From NCBI GenBank assembly GCA_029261965.1, contig JAJDAH010000118.1:1-64000 (forward strand): 64,000 nucleotides of DNA. The letters run 5' to 3'. The DNA is from Polyangiaceae bacterium. Its GTDB lineage: Bacteria; Myxococcota_A; Polyangia; Polyangiales; Polyangiaceae. Below the pieces are notes generated by a model. The model saw only the letters and a list, made by a program, of their open reading frames with translations. It made no database searches and was not told the DNA's origin. The position numbers and the translations under genes are program-made. Below, in pieces: positions 18,709 to 26,253 of the stretch. Numbering within the stretch: position 1 is the first letter of the stretch; each line of letters begins with the position of its first letter.

Positions 18709-18808
18709 TCATCCGGTTCATGAAGCGCGGCTCTCGAAGGCAAGCAATTCGGCTAGTGCGCCGCGAAGCGGCACTGTCACGCGTTTTGCACTAACCTCGC
18801 TCGTGCTG

Positions 18809-20227
18809 ATGCGTTCCGATGTCATCGCCATCCTGGCGGCTTGTGTCGCACTGCTTGGGTCCGGCCACGCGCGGTCCGAGCCAGCGCCGAGCGTGACTGG
18901 CGCCGGGGTCACGTTGCCGGGTTCGCGTCCGACGACCACGCCGGAATACACGCTCGACCGCTGCCTGAGCCTCGCCGAGCGCAACTACCCGAAGGTGCAC
19001 GAGGCGCGGAGCAAGCTCGACCGCATGCGCGCGCAGCTGCGCGAGGCGAAAACGGCTCCCTACAGCCAGTTCAACCTCGACGGTGGGATGATAGTAGCTC
19101 CGACCGTGCGGGGTACGAACATCTACAGCCCAAACACCGACGATGCACTCACCTCGAACATGTCGCTCGCCTGGCGAGTGGGAATCGAGGGGGTCGTGCC
19201 GTTGTGGACGTTCGGGAAGATCTCGAACTTGCGCGACGCCGCGGAAGCGCAGACGCGCGTCGGTCAACACGACATCAAGAAAGAGCAGAACGAGGTCAAA
19301 CTCTCGGTCCGCGAGGCGTTCTACGGCGCCCAATTGGCTCGCGATGCGCGCGCTCTCGTGCAGAGCGCCATCCGCCGCATCGACAAGCATCTCGGATCGC
19401 TCGAGAAGAAGGTCGACGAGGGTGACGGCGACGACATCGAGCTCTTGAAGTTGAAGATGTACCGCGCCGAGCTCGTCGCGCGACAGGTTCAAGCTGGGAC
19501 TCAGGAGCGTGTCGCGCTCGCTGCGCTGCGCTTTTTGGTCGGTGTGGATCGGAAGAAAGCGTTCGACATACCCGATGAGCCGTTGGAGCGCGTCTCGCAC
19601 ACCCTCGGTCCGCTGGCGCACTACCTGACGGCCGCGCGGCTCTATCGGCCGGAAGTCAACATGGCGCGCGCGGGTGTGGTGGCGCGCCGAGCGCAAATGC
19701 GACTCGAACGCTCGAAGTACTTCCCCGATCTCGGCCTTGCTCTGCGCGCCCAGTGGGCCCAGGCGCCAGAAATCACGGATCAGGTAAACCCCTTCGTTCG
19801 CGATCCTGCCAACTTCGTTCGATACGGGGCCGGTTTGGTCTTGCGATGGAAGCTCGATTTCCTCCCTCAGGCAGCTCGCGTGGCGCAGGCGCGGGCGAAT
19901 CTCGAACAGATGCGCGCCACCGAGCGCTTTGCGCTGGGTGGCGTCGCTGTCGAAGTCGAAAGAGCGTTTCATGAGGCCCGCGGCGCCAAACGGCGCCTGG
20001 AAGCGTTCACGGAGGCGACTCAGTACGCCAAGCGCTGGCTCATCAAGGTCCAGCAGGGCATCGACATCGGGACTTTCGACGACGAGGACATCGTGGATCC
20101 TGCCAAAGAGTACGCGCTCAAGAAGTTCGCGAGAATGTCGGCTGTATTCGACTACAACATGGCACTCGCGAAGCTCGCCTTGGCGACGGGTTGGGATTCG
20201 GTAGCGAGCGCTGCCCCTCGCGGCTAG
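18809..20227 (+). CDS. TolC-family outer-membrane efflux protein
   Basis: A 472-residue protein with a signal peptide ('AACVALLGSGHARSE') and the long helical repeats of TolC-like channels ('LDRCLSLAERNYPKVHEARSKL', 'EVKLSVREAFYGAQLARDARAL', 'RARANLEQMRATER'-type segments). It would form the outer-membrane duct of a tripartite exporter or type I secretion system. No inner-membrane or adaptor gene is nearby. The ATG at 18809 is chosen because it begins the signal peptide. It lies 100 bp after the NtrC-type gene. Confidence 0.9.
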   Translation: MRSDVIAILAACVALLGSGHARSEPAPSVTGAGVTLPGSRPTTTPEYTLDRCLSLAERNYPKVHEARSKLDRMRAQLREAKTAPYSQFNLDGGMIVAPTVRGTNIYSPNTDDALTSNMSLAWRVGIEGVVPLWTFGKISNLRDAAEAQTRVGQHDIKKEQNEVKLSVREAFYGAQLARDARALVQSAIRRIDKHLGSLEKKVDEGDGDDIELLKLKMYRAELVARQVQAGTQERVALAALRFLVGVDRKKAFDIPDEPLERVSHTLGPLAHYLTAARLYRPEVNMARAGVVARRAQMRLERSKYFPDLGLALRAQWAQAPEITDQVNPFVRDPANFVRYGAGLVLRWKLDFLPQAARVAQARANLEQMRATERFALGGVAVEVERAFHEARGAKRRLEAFTEATQYAKRWLIKVQQGIDIGTFDDEDIVDPAKEYALKKFARMSAVFDYNMALAKLALATGWDSVASAAPRG

Positions 20228-20329: not shown

Positions 20330-22120
20330 TCAGAGGACGAAGGCGCGTGCGCGCGACTCTTCTTCGTCGAGCTTCTTTTCGATGCTCTGAAGGCCGTTGG
20401 TGATGGCGTCGGTCGCCATCTGGAAAATCGCCGGCAAGTTGCCTTTGAGTGCTTCGTAGTACCGTTGCCGTTCCGTCGAGTGAATGATCACGGGGGGGTA
20501 CTCGCTGCGAATCAGAATGATGTTCATGAACATCCGGCTGACTTTTCCGCTGTCTTGCGAGAACGGAAACGCTCGCAGGAGATCGTAGTGCGCCCGGGCG
20601 GCGATGCGGATGGGGTCCTTGATTTTCTTTGGCTCGGGACCGTTGAGCCAGTCGACGACCTGGCGCACCTTGTAGGCGATCTTGTCCGGCGTCGAGTACT
20701 CGTGAAAGTACAAGCGGTGCTGCGGAATGTCTTTCCTGTACTTGACGCTCTTGAGATCGCCTTCGTCGGGATGGAGCGTCAAGTAGAGGCGTTTGATGAC
20801 GTCGATGTTCAGCGGCACGCGTCGCTTCTCCGCCAGCTCCCGCACCAGGTCGAGAGCGCTCTTGTGTCGTCGGATCTCTTCGCAGACGGGCTGGAGGCTC
20901 GAATCTGGGACCACCGTGATATTGGGGTCGATGGCGGTCTTGAGTTCCTGGAACGTGTAGACGACACCCTCGAGGGCGCTGTCGTGATAAATCCACGACA
21001 TGTCTAGACTTTCTCGGTACTCGCGCTGAAATTCCTCGCCGGCTTTTGTCAGCCGACTCCTCACCGAAGCGTAGCGCTCGGTGATGCGCGCCGGCGGCGC
21101 TTTCGGTGGTGGGCGTGCCGTCGGCGGTCGATAGGCCGCCGTCATCGGCGAAGGATTGGGTGCCGGTACCGGTGCGCTCGTGCGCAGCCTCAGGTTGGCG
21201 AATTTGCTCTCCGGGAGGCTCGACTGACCCGCCAGGTGCTTGGTGGTCCCCGACTGATTCGGGATCATGTTCGGCGAATAGACTCGCTGAGTACTGCTAC
21301 GGCTCCCCGCACCGCGCTGAGCCCGTCCGCTCGCCCGAGCCACTCGACCTTCGAGGGCCCGCCGCTGAGCCTCCTTTTCGGCGCGAATGCGCGCTCGCTC
21401 GGTTTCCTTGGCTTTGCGATACGCCTCGCGCTCCGCTTCGCGACGCGCTCGCTCTTCCTCTTTCTTCTTGCGAGCTTCCTCGCGTAGGCGCTCGCGCTCG
21501 GCTTCCTTCTCGGCGCGGATCCGCGCTCTCTCGGCCTCCCGTTCCTTACGCTCTGCCTCTTTCTGAGCGGCCTTTTCCTTCTTGATCCGAGCGCGCTCTT
21601 TTTCGCGTTCCTTCTTGAGGCGCGCGTTGAGTTTTTCCTGTTCCCGGCGAGCGCGCTCTCGTTCGCGTTCCTTTTGCGCCTTGATGCGCTCGCGCTCTTT
21701 CTGCTTTTTCGCCTGCTCGCGCTTCTTCAGCAGCTGCGCGCGTTCTTTTTCGCGCGCCTTTTTCTCACGCGCCTTCTTGTCGCGTTCGCGCGACTTTTGC
21801 TTCTGCGCGAGTGCCTTCTTCTTTTTCGCGAGATCACGGGCGCGGCTGGCTTTTGATGCCTTTTTCGCCGGACGCTTCTTCGGAGCCTTGCTCGACTTCC
21901 TCGCGGGCTTCTTTTTCGCTGCCTTCTTTGCGGGCCGCTTGGGCGTCGGTTTGGCCCGCTTCTTCGGTGCGGCCTTCTTGCGAACCGGTTTCGAGACTTT
22001 CGTCCTGCGGGTCGACTTTTTGGCGCGCCGCGTCGAAGACTTCGCCGGTCGAGAGGCCGACCGGCGGGACGACGCGCGTTTCGCGCTCTTTTTTGTCTTC
22101 TTTTTTCGACTCTTAGCCAT
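20330..22120 (-). CDS. Basic coiled-coil protein with degenerate Fic domain
   Basis: A 596-residue protein in three parts. Residues 1-100 are Lys/Arg/Ala/Ser/Pro-rich, like a histone H1 tail. Residues 100-260 are almost only Lys, Arg and Glu with Ala, as in a single alpha-helix or coiled coil. After a Pro-rich linker, residues 345-596 follow the Fic fold: 'YHDSALEGV' resembles the inhibitory-helix region, and 'RAFPFSQDSGKVSRMFMN' aligns with HPFxxGNGRxxR. The catalytic His is Phe518 and the loop Asn is Ser524, while G525, K526 and R529 are kept. AMP transfer by the usual mechanism is therefore unlikely. The ATG at 22120 begins 'MAKSRKKK'. It lies 173 bp downstream of map. Confidence 0.8.
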   Translation of the reverse strand: MAKSRKKKTKKSAKRASSRRSASRPAKSSTRRAKKSTRRTKVSKPVRKKAAPKKRAKPTPKRPAKKAAKKKPARKSSKAPKKRPAKKASKASRARDLAKKKKALAQKQKSRERDKKAREKKAREKERAQLLKKREQAKKQKERERIKAQKERERERARREQEKLNARLKKEREKERARIKKEKAAQKEAERKEREAERARIRAEKEAERERLREEARKKKEEERARREAEREAYRKAKETERARIRAEKEAQRRALEGRVARASGRAQRGAGSRSSTQRVYSPNMIPNQSGTTKHLAGQSSLPESKFANLRLRTSAPVPAPNPSPMTAAYRPPTARPPPKAPPARITERYASVRSRLTKAGEEFQREYRESLDMSWIYHDSALEGVVYTFQELKTAIDPNITVVPDSSLQPVCEEIRRHKSALDLVRELAEKRRVPLNIDVIKRLYLTLHPDEGDLKSVKYRKDIPQHRLYFHEYSTPDKIAYKVRQVVDWLNGPEPKKIKDPIRIAARAHYDLLRAFPFSQDSGKVSRMFMNIILIRSEYPPVIIHSTERQRYYEALKGNLPAIFQMATDAITNGLQSIEKKLDEEESRARAFVL

Positions 22121-22293: not shown

Positions 22294-23097
22294 TCAGTAG
22301 TCGTCGAATATTTCGCTGTTTTTCAGCTTGCCTGGACGGGCAGTCAGGATTTCCGCCCCATCGCCGGTCACGAGCACGGTGTGCTCGAACTGCGCGGACA
22401 GCGTTCCGTCGAGCGTAACCGCCGTCCACTCGTCTTCGAGCACCTTAACTTCCCAATGCCCGACGTTGATCATCGGCTCGATGGTGAACGTCATGCCCTC
22501 TTTGAGTCTGAGGCCAGTGCCCGCCTTTCCGTAGTGCGAGACTTTGGGCTCGTCGTGGAACTTCCGGCCGATGCCGTGGCCGACGAAGTCCCGCACGACC
22601 GAGCAATTCTGCCCCTCAGCGAACTCTTGAATCGCGGCGCCTATGTCGCCGAGCCGCGCGCCCGGTGCCACCTGAGCAATGCCGAGCTCGAGTGACTTGC
22701 GAGACACCTCGGTCACCTTCCGCGCTTCGGCGCTCGGAGTACCGACGTAGAAAGTTGCCGAAGTATCCCCGTGGTAGCCCTTGTAAAGGTGCGTGACGTC
22801 CACGTTGATGATGTCGCCTGCGAGCAGCTTTTGAGGCCCGGGGATCCCGTGACACACGATTTCGTTGACTGAAGTGCAGACGCTCTTGGGGAAGCCCAGA
22901 TAGTTCAGCGGTGCCGGCTCGGCGCCTTTTCGTAGGGTGTCCGCATGCACGAACTCGTTGATTTCGTCGGTCGTGATGCCCGGTCGAATGATGTCGCCCA
23001 CTGCCGAGAGGGTCTCGCCGGCGAGCCGGCCCACCTCCCGCATGAGTTCGATTTCGCGTTGAGTTTTTATTTCGACTGAGCTGCGGCGAAAGTGCAT
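22294..23097 (-). CDS. map: Methionine aminopeptidase type I
   Basis: Removes the initiator methionine from nascent proteins. The 267 residues contain all five metal ligands: D100, D111, H174, E207 and E238, in 'NVDVTHLYKGYHGD', 'FVGHGIGRKFH', 'FTIEPM' and 'QFEHT'. Length is normal for type I without an N-terminal zinc extension. It starts 6 bp after the stop of an upstream lipoprotein gene, so the two are likely cotranscribed, away from the usual secY or rpsB context. Confidence 0.97.
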   Translation of the reverse strand: MHFRRSSVEIKTQREIELMREVGRLAGETLSAVGDIIRPGITTDEINEFVHADTLRKGAEPAPLNYLGFPKSVCTSVNEIVCHGIPGPQKLLAGDIINVDVTHLYKGYHGDTSATFYVGTPSAEARKVTEVSRKSLELGIAQVAPGARLGDIGAAIQEFAEGQNCSVVRDFVGHGIGRKFHDEPKVSHYGKAGTGLRLKEGMTFTIEPMINVGHWEVKVLEDEWTAVTLDGTLSAQFEHTVLVTGDGAEILTARPGKLKNSEIFDDY

Positions 23098-23103
23098 GAG
23101 TTG

Positions 23104-23664
23104 TCAGTAGCCAGAAACGTCACGCATTGCGCGTGCCCGTGCAACCTTTGCGCGGACTCGTGCCGTATCGGGTTCGGCTCTCCAGTGGGTGACTATCGTC
23201 CCTTGGTCGTTGAAGCGACGAAAGATCAAAATGAGCGATCGCCCGAGGAGCGATTCGCCGGCGTTTCTCACGAGGGGATAGATGCGGTTGGTGTTGGTGA
23301 CGAGAAGATCGATGGGGTCGGCGGCAGGGTCGCCCGCAAGCGCTTCCCCCATGGGCCGGAAAGTGAGGCTGATCGCGTCGTTTTCGCGGGTCACGGTGGC
23401 GATCTTGACGTGCAAAACCGAATCCGCCCTCCGAATCCGGCTTTCGAGCAGGCGATCCGACGAGTCAGCCTCAATCGCCAGCCCGAAGATTTCCACCGCC
23501 GCGCTGTCGTCGAAGAGAAGCGCATCCTCGGCGGCATAGGTTGGATAAGCTGCGGGATCGGCGGCAACTGGCCCCGAGACGTGAGGTCCGCATCCCGCGG
23601 GCCCGCTCAGCGCTCCGGTCGCGAGAAGCAGCCCAAGCAGCTCGAACGGTTGTCGTCGGTACAT
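23104..23664 (-). CDS. Putative lipoprotein upstream of map
   Basis: A 186-residue protein with a hydrophobic N-terminus ending 'SGPAGC', an imperfect lipobox because Pro occupies the -3 position. The mature part has no motif I recognise; it is mixed alpha/beta with segments 'DDSAAVEIFGLAIEA' and 'LVRNAGESLLGRSLILIF'. The ATG at 23664 is chosen as the start because it begins the signal peptide; the frame is open for 71 more codons upstream. It overlaps nothing and is 6 bp from map. Confidence 0.7.
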   Translation of the reverse strand: MYRRQPFELLGLLLATGALSGPAGCGPHVSGPVAADPAAYPTYAAEDALLFDDSAAVEIFGLAIEADSSDRLLESRIRRADSVLHVKIATVTRENDAISLTFRPMGEALAGDPAADPIDLLVTNTNRIYPLVRNAGESLLGRSLILIFRRFNDQGTIVTHWRAEPDTARVRAKVARARAMRDVSGY

Positions 23665-23844
23665 GAAGATCTTGGTCGATTGGATGCCGCGAGCGAGTAA
23701 ATCGTTCCTACCCCGAAGGTACGCGCCGGGGATTTTTGCGCCAGGGCGAGGCTCGGTCGCGCTGATTTTGCCGGCGGATCGACTTTTTCCGCCCAAAGAT
23801 CGATGATTTGGGGGTGCGTCTCCGTCTATCGATTGGACCCGCGC

Positions 23845-23874
23845 TTGAGGCGTCACTCGTCGCGATGCTAGGTT
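23845..23874 (+). promoter_or_regulatory. Putative sigma-70 promoter
   Basis: TTGAGG (23845-23850) and TAGGTT (23869-23874) are 18 bp apart. The predicted transcription start near 23881 leaves a short leader holding the Shine-Dalgarno GGGAGG before the ATG at 23905. This is pattern matching only. Confidence 0.4.
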
Positions 23875-23904
23875 CACGACACCTAAGGATTTCGGGAGGA
23901 TACG

Positions 23905-24822
23905 ATGAGGCTTAGAGCCGTTTTAGCGCTCGCCGGCACGCTGATGCTCGCGGGCTCAATCGCCGCTCCGTCCGTGAGCGCCTCTCCACAAGTCTTGCTC
24001 GGTCGCTTCTTCGACGACGACTCGAAGAAGAAAAAGAAGAAAAAGAAAAAGAGTAAGGCCAAGGCCAAGGGGAAGGGGAAGAAGGGCGAGGCTGTGGACA
24101 AGGGTCCCGGTCCTACCAAGATTTCCAAGAAAGTTCGTCTGCGGCCCAAGGGCCTTCAATGGGGACAGAGCGTCAAAGAGATCTCGAAGCTCTACGAGAA
24201 GGTCTTCGAGGACGAGTTCCGGCCCCTCTACAAGCGCGTTCAGCCTGGCGTGAAGATGCAGGCTCTCGACGAGGAGCTTCGCATCAAGAAGGGCCTCATC
24301 CGGCGCAGCCTAGTGAAGTTCGGCGCGACGCCAACCGGCGTCGACTACACGTCGCTCAAGGGCGAGTACACATACCGAAACAAGGAGAGCAAGACGCGCC
24401 TCGTGTTGCGGAGCGGTACCACCCGACATTTCTTCTTCTTCGACGACCGGCTCTGGAAGGTCTACGACGAATATCCGCTCAAGAAGGGCGGCCCGCTCGG
24501 AAAGACCTACAGCGGCGCCATCAAGAAGCTCACGAAGAAGTTCAAGGTCGCGCCACGAATGCGCGAGGGCGGCAGCGAAGGCGGCCCCCGGCTCACCGAA
24601 GGCGATTGGGCCGATGGAACCAACGTGATCCGCGCTGTTGATCGCGAGTACGAAAACATCATCGGTATCGTCTACGTCGAGCAACGAGTTTTCGAGAACC
24701 TCGACAGTCACCGTCCCAACAAGCCAGTCGACCCGCACGCCATCGACAAGGACGTCGAACGGGTGACCGCGCCCCCGAAAAAGGGCGAGTCCGGCAAGAA
24801 GAAGAAGGCCAAGAAAAAGTAA
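23905..24822 (+). CDS. Secreted Lys-rich protein of unknown function
   Basis: A 305-residue exported protein. A clear signal peptide ends near 'VSASPQ'; a run of nine lysines starts at residue 41 and Lys/Gly/Ala-rich sequence continues to about residue 60, then a globular domain of about 200 residues with many Lys, Tyr and Phe residues ('TRHFFFFDDRLWKVYDEYPL'). The C-terminus is again Lys-rich. GGGAGG precedes the ATG. The polybasic tract could bind LPS, nucleic acid or the cell wall. I do not recognise the domain. Confidence 0.75.
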   Translation: MRLRAVLALAGTLMLAGSIAAPSVSASPQVLLGRFFDDDSKKKKKKKKKSKAKAKGKGKKGEAVDKGPGPTKISKKVRLRPKGLQWGQSVKEISKLYEKVFEDEFRPLYKRVQPGVKMQALDEELRIKKGLIRRSLVKFGATPTGVDYTSLKGEYTYRNKESKTRLVLRSGTTRHFFFFDDRLWKVYDEYPLKKGGPLGKTYSGAIKKLTKKFKVAPRMREGGSEGGPRLTEGDWADGTNVIRAVDREYENIIGIVYVEQRVFENLDSHRPNKPVDPHAIDKDVERVTAPPKKGESGKKKKAKKK

Positions 24823-24830
24823 TCGTCGAC

Positions 24831-24852
24831 GAGTGACCCGAGCCGGTCACTC
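24831..24852. terminator. Bidirectional hairpin at convergent ends
   Basis: GAGTGACC (24831-24838), loop CGAGCC, GGTCACTC (24845-24852) form a perfect 8-bp stem between the Lys-rich protein gene and the convergent NifU-like gene, overlapping the latter's stop codon. The minus-strand read leads into a short T run. It could terminate both transcripts. Confidence 0.5.
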
Positions 24853-25140
24853 GTTCGTGATCGCTTTCGCCCCTTCCGGAACGATGGCGCCCGACGTCAC
24901 AGTGACACGGATGTCCGGGGCGACCGAGCGCAGTGCGGGCTCGATGATCCGACGCTGTGCGAGGGTGTTCCCGGGGCACCCCGAGTAGCGACCCGTCAGG
25001 TGGAGAGCCACGGATTGCGGAGCGACGTCCACCACGTACACCCGACCCCCGTCGGCCCGGACCAAGGGCTCGATGACATCCTGGACGACACGCAGGACTG
25101 CTTCGGGACTGGCCGCCATTGCCGCGGGTGAAGTTACCAT
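24847..25140 (-). CDS. NifU C-terminal-like protein lacking one Cys
   Basis: A 97-residue protein matching the NifU/NfuA scaffold domain: 'GRVYVVDVAPQSVALHLTGRYSGCPGNTL' followed by 'RRIIEPALRSVAP'. Family members bind a 4Fe-4S cluster through CxxC; here the first position is Tyr52 and only C55 remains. Cluster transfer by the usual homodimer arrangement is therefore doubtful. The ATG at 25140 gives the normal N-terminus. It is divergent from rpsP. Confidence 0.8.
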   Translation of the reverse strand: MVTSPAAMAASPEAVLRVVQDVIEPLVRADGGRVYVVDVAPQSVALHLTGRYSGCPGNTLAQRRIIEPALRSVAPDIRVTVTSGAIVPEGAKAITNE

Positions 25141-25145
25141 GTGGG

Positions 25146-25175
25146 TTGACCGACCCGCGAGGCTTCCCGTAGGGT
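25146..25175 (+). promoter_or_regulatory. Putative rpsP operon promoter
   Basis: TTGACC (25146-25151) and TAGGGT (25170-25175) lie 18 bp apart upstream of rpsP, with a leader of about 75 nt. The -35 matches the sigma-70 consensus well and the -10 resembles the one proposed at 23869. Confidence 0.5.
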
Positions 25176-25257
25176 CCCGCTCCCCCGACCCCGCTCCCGG
25201 GGCACTGGCGCCCGTGGACGGAAGTGCTAGTTTCGCGCCCGAGGGGCACCGAGGACC

Positions 25258-25509
25258 ATGGCTGTACACATCCGACTCGCTCGCTACGGCACCAAGAAGG
25301 GCCCATTCTACCGGATCGTCGTCACTGACCAGCGCAACGCGCGCGACGGGCGATTCATCGAGAACATCGGGACTTACGACCCGAGCGCCGACCCTGGCAA
25401 GCTGGACGTCGATCGAAGGCGCCTCGACTTTTGGCGTGGGCGCGGCGCTCAGGCATCGCACACCCTCCAACACCTGTTGCGCAACAATCCTCCGCCGGCG
25501 GCGGGATAG
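25258..25509 (+). CDS. rpsP: 30S ribosomal protein S16
   Basis: 83 residues starting 'MAVHIRLARYGTKKGPFYRIV' and containing 'RDGRFIENIGTYDP', diagnostic of bS16, a small-subunit assembly protein. It leads the standard rpsP-khpA-rimM-trmD operon. CGAGGA precedes the ATG. Confidence 0.98.
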   Translation: MAVHIRLARYGTKKGPFYRIVVTDQRNARDGRFIENIGTYDPSADPGKLDVDRRRLDFWRGRGAQASHTLQHLLRNNPPPAAG

Positions 25510-25522
25510 CCCCCGAGAGCGC

Positions 25523-25753
25523 GTGAAAGAGCTCATCTCCACCATCGCACGGGCGCTCGTCGACGAGCCGGACAGCGTCGAGGTGAAGGAAATCGAGAGC
25601 GACAACAATTCGCTCATCGAGCTGCGCGTCGCCAAGGACGACATCGGCAAGGTGATCGGCCGCGACGGGCGGACCGCGCAATCGATGAGGACGATTCTCA
25701 GCGCCGCGTCGACGAAGCTCGGCCGACGCACGCATCTCGACATCGTCGATTGA
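25523..25753 (+). CDS. khpA: KH-domain RNA-binding protein
   Basis: A 76-residue single KH domain with the signature 'DIGKVIGRDGRTAQSMRTIL', where GRDG is the RNA-binding GxxG loop. KhpA works with KhpB as an RNA chaperone linked to cell division and ribosome assembly in other bacteria. I use the GTG at 25523, 13 bp after the rpsP stop. Its TGA overlaps the TTG of rimM as TTGA. Confidence 0.93.
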   Translation: MKELISTIARALVDEPDSVEVKEIESDNNSLIELRVAKDDIGKVIGRDGRTAQSMRTILSAASTKLGRRTHLDIVD

Positions 25754-26253
25754 ACCTCGTCGAGCTCGGTCGCATCGGGCGTCCCCATGGGCTCAAGGGA
25801 GAGCTCAAAGTGCACCCGCACTGGGTCGGCGGAAGTGCGCTGGGCGAGGCGAGGGCGCTCTTCGTGGGCATCGAGGGCGAAGAGCCCCGATTGATGAAGG
25901 TCGAAGCCGCCCGCGCAGCGGGAAAAACCGTGCTGCTCAAGCTGGAGGGCGTCGATGATCGAGACGCGGCTGCCGAATACACCGGGGGTCGGGTCGCCGT
26001 CGAACGAGCGACTCTTCCCGAACCGGAGCCTGACGAATTCTATCTCGTCGACCTGCTGGGCTGCGAGGTGGTCGGCCCGGAGGGCACGATCGGCGAGGTG
26101 GTGGAGATCCGCACCCATCCGACCATCGACACGATGCTCATCCGGAGCGCCGAAGGGCAGGTGCACGAGCACCCGATCGGTGAGCAATGGCTCGAAGACG
26201 TCGACCTCGACCAAGCCCGCGTGACTCTCGTCAGCACCGACGGCCTGATCTAG
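25750..26253 (+). CDS. rimM: 16S rRNA processing protein
   Basis: 167 residues with the N-terminal RimM beta-barrel ('GRIGRPHGLKGELKVHP') and the C-terminal PRC-barrel ('FYLVDLLGCEVVGPEGTIGEV'). It binds ribosomal protein S19 and helps mature the 30S head. The start is TTG, coupled to khpA by a 4-nt overlap. Confidence 0.96.
   Translation: MNLVELGRIGRPHGLKGELKVHPHWVGGSALGEARALFVGIEGEEPRLMKVEAARAAGKTVLLKLEGVDDRDAAAEYTGGRVAVERATLPEPEPDEFYLVDLLGCEVVGPEGTIGEVVEIRTHPTIDTMLIRSAEGQVHEHPIGEQWLEDVDLDQARVTLVSTDGLI

Follow-up and report, generated by a model that had tools for sequence, protein, structure and literature searches.

In the window, by which we mean the whole stretch of 64,000 nucleotides that was analysed, a minus-strand gene encodes a protein whose C-terminal part is a Fic domain of the FICD type with a degenerate catalytic loop. 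We refer to it as pseudo-Fic; its parts and its immediate neighbours are listed in Table 1. The Pfam Fic family (PF02661) matched residues 437-536 with 36.6 bits (cut-off 24). No NCBIfam family was matched by the protein and no Rfam family within the window.

Table 1. Coordinates in the window of the pseudo-Fic gene, its parts and the adjoining genes
Feature	Position	Strand	Basis
Whole pseudo-Fic gene	20330..22120	(-)	ORF of 596 aa plus stop; 12 relatives with homologous full-length proteins and the same arm/core boundary
FICD-type Fic core, residues 345-596	20333..21088	(-)	Pfam Fic; AlphaFold; match to FICD 6i7g; class-wide presence
Alpha-inh motif HDSALEG, residues 379-385, with conserved Glu384	20966..20986	(-)	Family table
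Flap region VKYRKDIPQHRLYFHE, residues 459-474	20699..20746	(-)	Family table
Degenerate Fic loop FPFSQDSGKVSR, residues 518-529	20534..20569	(-)	Alignment with FICD; family table; changes on the tree
H1-like Lys/Arg/Ala/Pro/Ser tail, residues 1-95	21836..22120	(-)	Composition; disorder predicted by AlphaFold
Uninterrupted charged helix (predicted), residues 93-260	21341..21844	(-)	AlphaFold; composition
Pro-rich disordered linker, residues 261-344, with conserved RVYxPxxIPNQSGT	21089..21340	(-)	Alignment of 13 full-length proteins
Methionine aminopeptidase-like gene (presumed), directly upstream of the pseudo-Fic gene	22294-23097	(-)	Reading of the sequence
Outer-membrane efflux gene, facing the pseudo-Fic gene	18791-20227	(+)	

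Gene calls in the neighbourhood were mechanical. The upstream gene, which we take from its sequence to encode a methionine aminopeptidase, has a counterpart beside the pseudo-Fic gene in 23 loci, a pairing that recurs among close relatives; other lineages have different housekeeping genes in its place. Two ORFs further on, 23104-23877 (-) and 23905-24822 (+), are also conserved beside the gene in relatives and have no Pfam match. A 455-aa ORF at 24847-26214 (-) carries a NifU-like domain (PF01106) at its C-terminal end only (residues 375-435), its first 370 residues matching no Pfam family. No constant gene partner emerged from the comparison of loci: ribA, nth, hisF, ilvE, tlpA, rsmH and map, names that we presume from reading the sequences rather than from a family search, are neighbours in some lineages only. 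At about 15 distant myxobacterial loci (L183, L187, L190, L192, L194-L198, L202-L204, L206, L210, L211), a ribA-like gene for GTP cyclohydrolase II lies directly downstream on the same strand, which may reflect common descent or offer a hint.

Fold, loop, clamp and flap

The core was modelled with AlphaFold2 from 40 relatives (mean pLDDT 94.7, pTM 0.91). Foldseek returned FICD structures as the best PDB matches of this model, and a second structural alignment superposed it on FICD 6i7g with Z 26.2 and 2.6 A over 239 residues. The match spans FICD residues 197-442 and thereby takes in alpha-inh, core and C-terminal helix; the Fic fold claimed in the earlier note is borne out by both the Pfam score and the model. 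FICD/HYPE, a metazoan class II AMPylase-deAMPylase, and BT_2513 (3cuc) share this fold throughout the core, alpha-inh included, and they are the best PDB sequence match of pseudo-Fic (E 3e-29). Unlike FICD, pseudo-Fic has no TPR domain that we could find, and it is bacterial and near-universal in one class. The full-length model places a disordered segment (1-90), a single helix (93-260) and a disordered linker in front of the Fic core.

Our alignment sets the loop FPFSQDSGKVSR against HPFIDGNGRTSR of human FICD. Five positions differ (His to Phe, Asp to Gln, Gly to Asp, Asn to Ser, first Arg to Lys), while Pro, Phe, the second Gly and the second Arg are unchanged. The catalytic His and the loop Asn are thus Phe and Ser, as the earlier note had read them, and the metal-binding Asp/Glu and the first Arg of active Fic proteins are replaced by Gln and Lys. 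A search for an intact HPFxxGNGR elsewhere in the protein found none. Beyond what that note had noticed, two further elements are kept: the last Arg of the loop and the motif HDSALEG, the counterpart of the FICD helix that bears the inhibitory Glu234.

Class II Fic proteins carry the motif [S/T]xxxE[G/N], with a Ser or Thr four residues before the inhibitory Glu. Pseudo-Fic shares with them an alpha-inh that lies N-terminal to the core and carries the inhibitory Glu, HDSALEG being aligned with alpha-inh of FICD, but no family member has Ser or Thr at the position four residues upstream (Asp in 119/125, Glu in 6/125).

These counts, and those that follow, come from a family table of 125 members less than 90% identical to each other, 103 from the class that holds Sorangium and Polyangium and 22 from outside it. 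The position of the catalytic His (FICD His363) is occupied by an aromatic residue in 122 of the 125 (F 80, Y 36, W 6, H 1, S 1, L 1), so the Phe of the window's protein has its like across the homologues. The loop Asn (Asn369) is Ser, Thr or Pro in 123 (S 106, T 10, P 7, N 1, A 1), and it is drifting or replaced family-wide together with the metal-binding acid (Asp367) and the first Arg (Arg371). By contrast with these mostly replaced positions, the equivalents of FICD Glu234 and Arg374 are kept: the second Arg is Arg in 125/125, and the alpha-inh residue is Glu in 123 and Asp in two, followed by Gly in all 125. The flap reads YRKDxPxHRxYFHE in the class, where its R, P, H, Y and H are invariant in 103/103 members. 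Outside the class only the Arg (22/22) and the Tyr (21/22) remain, and the first flap Arg is found in 125/125 overall.

The same pattern appears on a tree of 69 members. At least 14 changes fall on the His position, nearly all of them between aromatics, and 20-23 on each of the metal, G368 and R371 positions; the second Arg has none and the Glu two, both E to D. The catalytic and phosphate-holding positions therefore drift while the clamp pair is frozen, which is not what decay of the whole protein would give. In agreement with this, dN/dS lies between 0 and 0.11 in 10 close pairs (L103/L105 and L084/L087, mis-registered by indels, were left out). The pseudo-Fic gene is under strong purifying selection. 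A decaying gene or an alignment artefact, suggested by a loop unlike that of any active Fic, is refuted by these dN/dS values, by 98% presence in the class, by the high-confidence fold and by the near-invariant Pro and Gly and invariant Arg that anchor the loop alignment.

The sole member found with a His at the catalytic position (IHPFARHSGKLAR; L049, 7345-8082, minus strand) stands among Tyr-bearing rows. Nested as it is within the family, this His reads as a reversal.

Distribution and descent

A match was found in 55 of 59 relatives, 53 of these at E 1e-65 or better. Across the class, counting genomes at least 90% complete and matches at E 1e-30 or better, 188 of 192 genomes and 115 of 116 genera carry pseudo-Fic; among the named members are Sorangium, Polyangium, Minicystis, Labilithrix and Sandaracinaceae. 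A single match was found in all of the 188 except G127, G275, G402 and G348, which have two each. In G127 and G275 one match takes up the part of the profile that the other leaves, so that the gene is split or frame-shifted there. Further Myxococcota families outside the class gave matches at E 1e-28 to 1e-55, with a degenerate loop in all those read, and many others gave ordinary-Fic-level matches only, or none. A scan of named genomes with patterns taken from the window's protein returned 84 relatives; the 80 that were kept are, by their titles, myxobacteria or unresolved 'delta proteobacteria'.

We placed 69 members on a quick tree with 20 canonical Fic rows from the same phylum (loop H..x.GN.R; two of the 20 rows are the same gene). 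The members form one side of a single branch (support 97, one change), and although branches are long among the canonical rows, the family itself is unmixed with them. Its inner order broadly tracks the taxonomic groups, as vertical descent predicts. The best reading of these data is that pseudo-Fic is an ancient, vertically inherited family that pre-dates the split of several myxobacterial classes. A mobile origin was rejected: the plasmid matches listed are about 27% identical and look like ordinary Fic family proteins, and no close copy occurred on viral contigs. A Fic toxin-antitoxin module was likewise rejected, on account of the 98% presence, the vertical descent, and the lack of a constant neighbour and of a close plasmid or viral copy.

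Work on Fic proteins has usually dealt with enzymes that are mobile and patchily distributed, such as toxins and effectors. The Fic domain of pseudo-Fic lacks the catalytic residues, and its gene belongs to the core of a bacterial class, near-universal and in single copy. Pseudo-Fic is often the cell's only Fic: in 11 of 30 genomes, including the two single-contig genomes G065 and G193, it is the sole Fic domain, so an active Fic partner is not required. Five more Fic domains are found in the window's genome. We searched the open-licence literature on Fic pseudoenzymes, inactive Fido domains and myxobacterial or Sorangium Fic, and found no description of the family.

Function of the core and of the N-terminal arm

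The catalytic motif is lost class-wide, and a pseudo-enzyme, one of the two roles that the earlier note had raised, is the best reading of pseudo-Fic. On balance, we think it probable that it is a Fic pseudoenzyme with a closed clamp that acts by binding a conserved partner. In this view, AMPylation and deAMPylation chemistry would have disappeared from an FICD-type domain (class II, N-terminal alpha-inh) before the sampled myxobacterial classes diverged, and the domain would have been inherited vertically ever since. The Glu-Arg clamp would stay closed, an aromatic side chain would take up the space of the missing His, and binding of the conserved partner would most likely run via the flap. 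The window's family would have gained a long helix with an H1-like tail, an arm that probably tethers the domain to DNA or RNA.

Several results from known Fic proteins bear on this reading. DeAMPylation by EfFIC requires both the His and the acidic residue (PMC6408439), and FICD requires its His in both directions (PMC8373988); FICD chemistry is therefore very unlikely in pseudo-Fic, which has neither residue. In FICD, productive ATP binding is prevented by the pairing of the alpha-inh Glu with the second Arg (PMC6826200), and it is this very pair that is frozen in the pseudo-Fic family. The flap has been described as the main target-docking site of Fic enzymes (PMC5651007) and is the most conserved new feature within the class, where it is near-invariant, which favours a closed, non-catalytic domain that binds one partner via the flap side. 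Against this reading, the gene neighbourhood differs between lineages and points to no partner, so that the binding role is an inference.

A precedent for a Fic domain that serves as a recruiter is BepC of Bartonella, which also has a non-canonical Fic motif, binds GEF-H1 and has no detected activity (PMC8401265). Unlike pseudo-Fic, a chromosomal core gene product without the His, BepC belongs to the class I (FicTA) lineage, is secreted as a host-directed effector, still has the catalytic His146 and was found with bound AMPPNP (4WGJ). Doc clade D2 (Khater and Mohanty 2015) resembles pseudo-Fic in having another residue, Gln, instead of the catalytic His across the whole clade (PMC4454073). It differs in being Doc-type and in keeping the loop D/E and NKR, and core-gene status is not described there.

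The main rival is new chemistry on the same fold, in which the Fido pocket would have been re-purposed for a reaction that does not need the His, as exemplified by AvrB. AvrB has a Fido fold without a Fic motif (PMC2686095) and matches the core model with Z 11.9, and its entries 8two and 8txf, by their titles, contain UDP and rhamnosylated RIN4. AvrB is, however, an effector with an inserted domain, far more distant from pseudo-Fic in sequence and structure than FICD is. Within the class, flap His124, Tyr127 and His129 and the second Arg are invariant, in favour of this rival, and as a counter-point to the pseudoenzyme, the invariant flap Arg118, Arg207 and Tyr210 of the core, which lie outside the loop, would also fit an altered enzyme. 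However, the flap His residues are gone in most members of other classes and the phosphate-holding loop positions drift freely, which leaves few family-wide pocket residues beyond the Glu, the flap Arg and the second Arg. We regard a re-purposed enzyme as unlikely.

Two further alternatives are less likely still. Pseudo-Fic could be a trap or reader that binds AMP-modified clients and leaves the AMP on, as FICD H363A does when it holds AMPylated BiP in a long-lived complex (PMC8373988). The retained Glu and second Arg would suit this role, but the metal-binding acid, the Gly and the first Arg of the phosphate nest drift, and the 11 of 30 genomes mentioned above have no other Fic domain to write the AMP, a count restricted to Fic domains; we hold it to be improbable. 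Pseudo-Fic could also regulate an active Fic within its cell or serve it as an antitoxin-like partner. Fic-Fic neutralisation in Campylobacter fetus (PMC5651007) and the five other Fic domains of the window's genome could speak for such a role, but we hold it to be highly improbable, and as a general role it is rejected by the genomes with pseudo-Fic as sole Fic domain.

Returning to the binding pseudoenzyme, our results suggest a former enzyme that now has another job, probably resting on binding, and a natural case of an autoinhibited enzyme turned into a permanent binding protein. A database label such as 'Fic family protein' would be misleading here, as it implies an AMPylase. More tentatively, pseudo-Fic could be a universal core protein of the class holding Sorangium and Polyangium, one that descends from an FICD-like AMPylase and arose before several myxobacterial classes diverged. 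What was once an autoinhibition clamp would then serve as the fixed scaffold of a hub that binds a conserved partner in the cell, and in one family this hub would later have been linked to the nucleoid. Questions of partner and essentiality can be addressed in culturable Sorangium and Polyangium.

The possible nucleoid link concerns the N-terminal arm, which the earlier note had described as histone-like, resembling an H1 tail plus a single helix. The H1-like composition stood up and the long helix is predicted by the model; the arm is nevertheless no family feature and belongs to only part of the window's family. The H1-like character, a Lys/Ala/Pro-rich disordered basic tail by composition and predicted disorder, is confined to residues 1-95, with 49% K/R, zero D/E and a net charge of +46. 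Residues 96-253 have 44% K/R, 23% E and no Pro or Gly, with 27 E(i)-K/R(i+3) pairs in the charged helix against 16 expected. AlphaFold gives helix 93-260 a pLDDT of about 80 over most of its length; as this confidence is moderate and long charged helices are easily predicted, we consider the helix likely rather than established.

Among 72 non-redundant members (the window's family and named records), 29 have at least 100 Lys/Arg-rich residues before the core, lengths that depend on mechanical start choices. The sole long arm in the other sets is that of L215 (genome G149), from the same family as the window, and several further members of that family have short basic tails. Close relatives have homologous arms, aligned over a common RALEGRVAR...RVYxPxxIPNQSGT. 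By its distribution, the arm is a late addition specific to this lineage and confined to part of the window's own family. Its composition makes nucleic acid binding plausible. A Fic protein linked to DNA binding is known in CbFic2 of Coxiella (8cil, Z 20.5; PMC10628234), which would be a parallel to this putative link, although CbFic2 is an active enzyme. In three arm-bearing members (L080, L084, L086) the C-terminus is extended by an acidic tail rich in Asp and Ser, whose charge is the opposite of that of the basic arm at the N-terminus.
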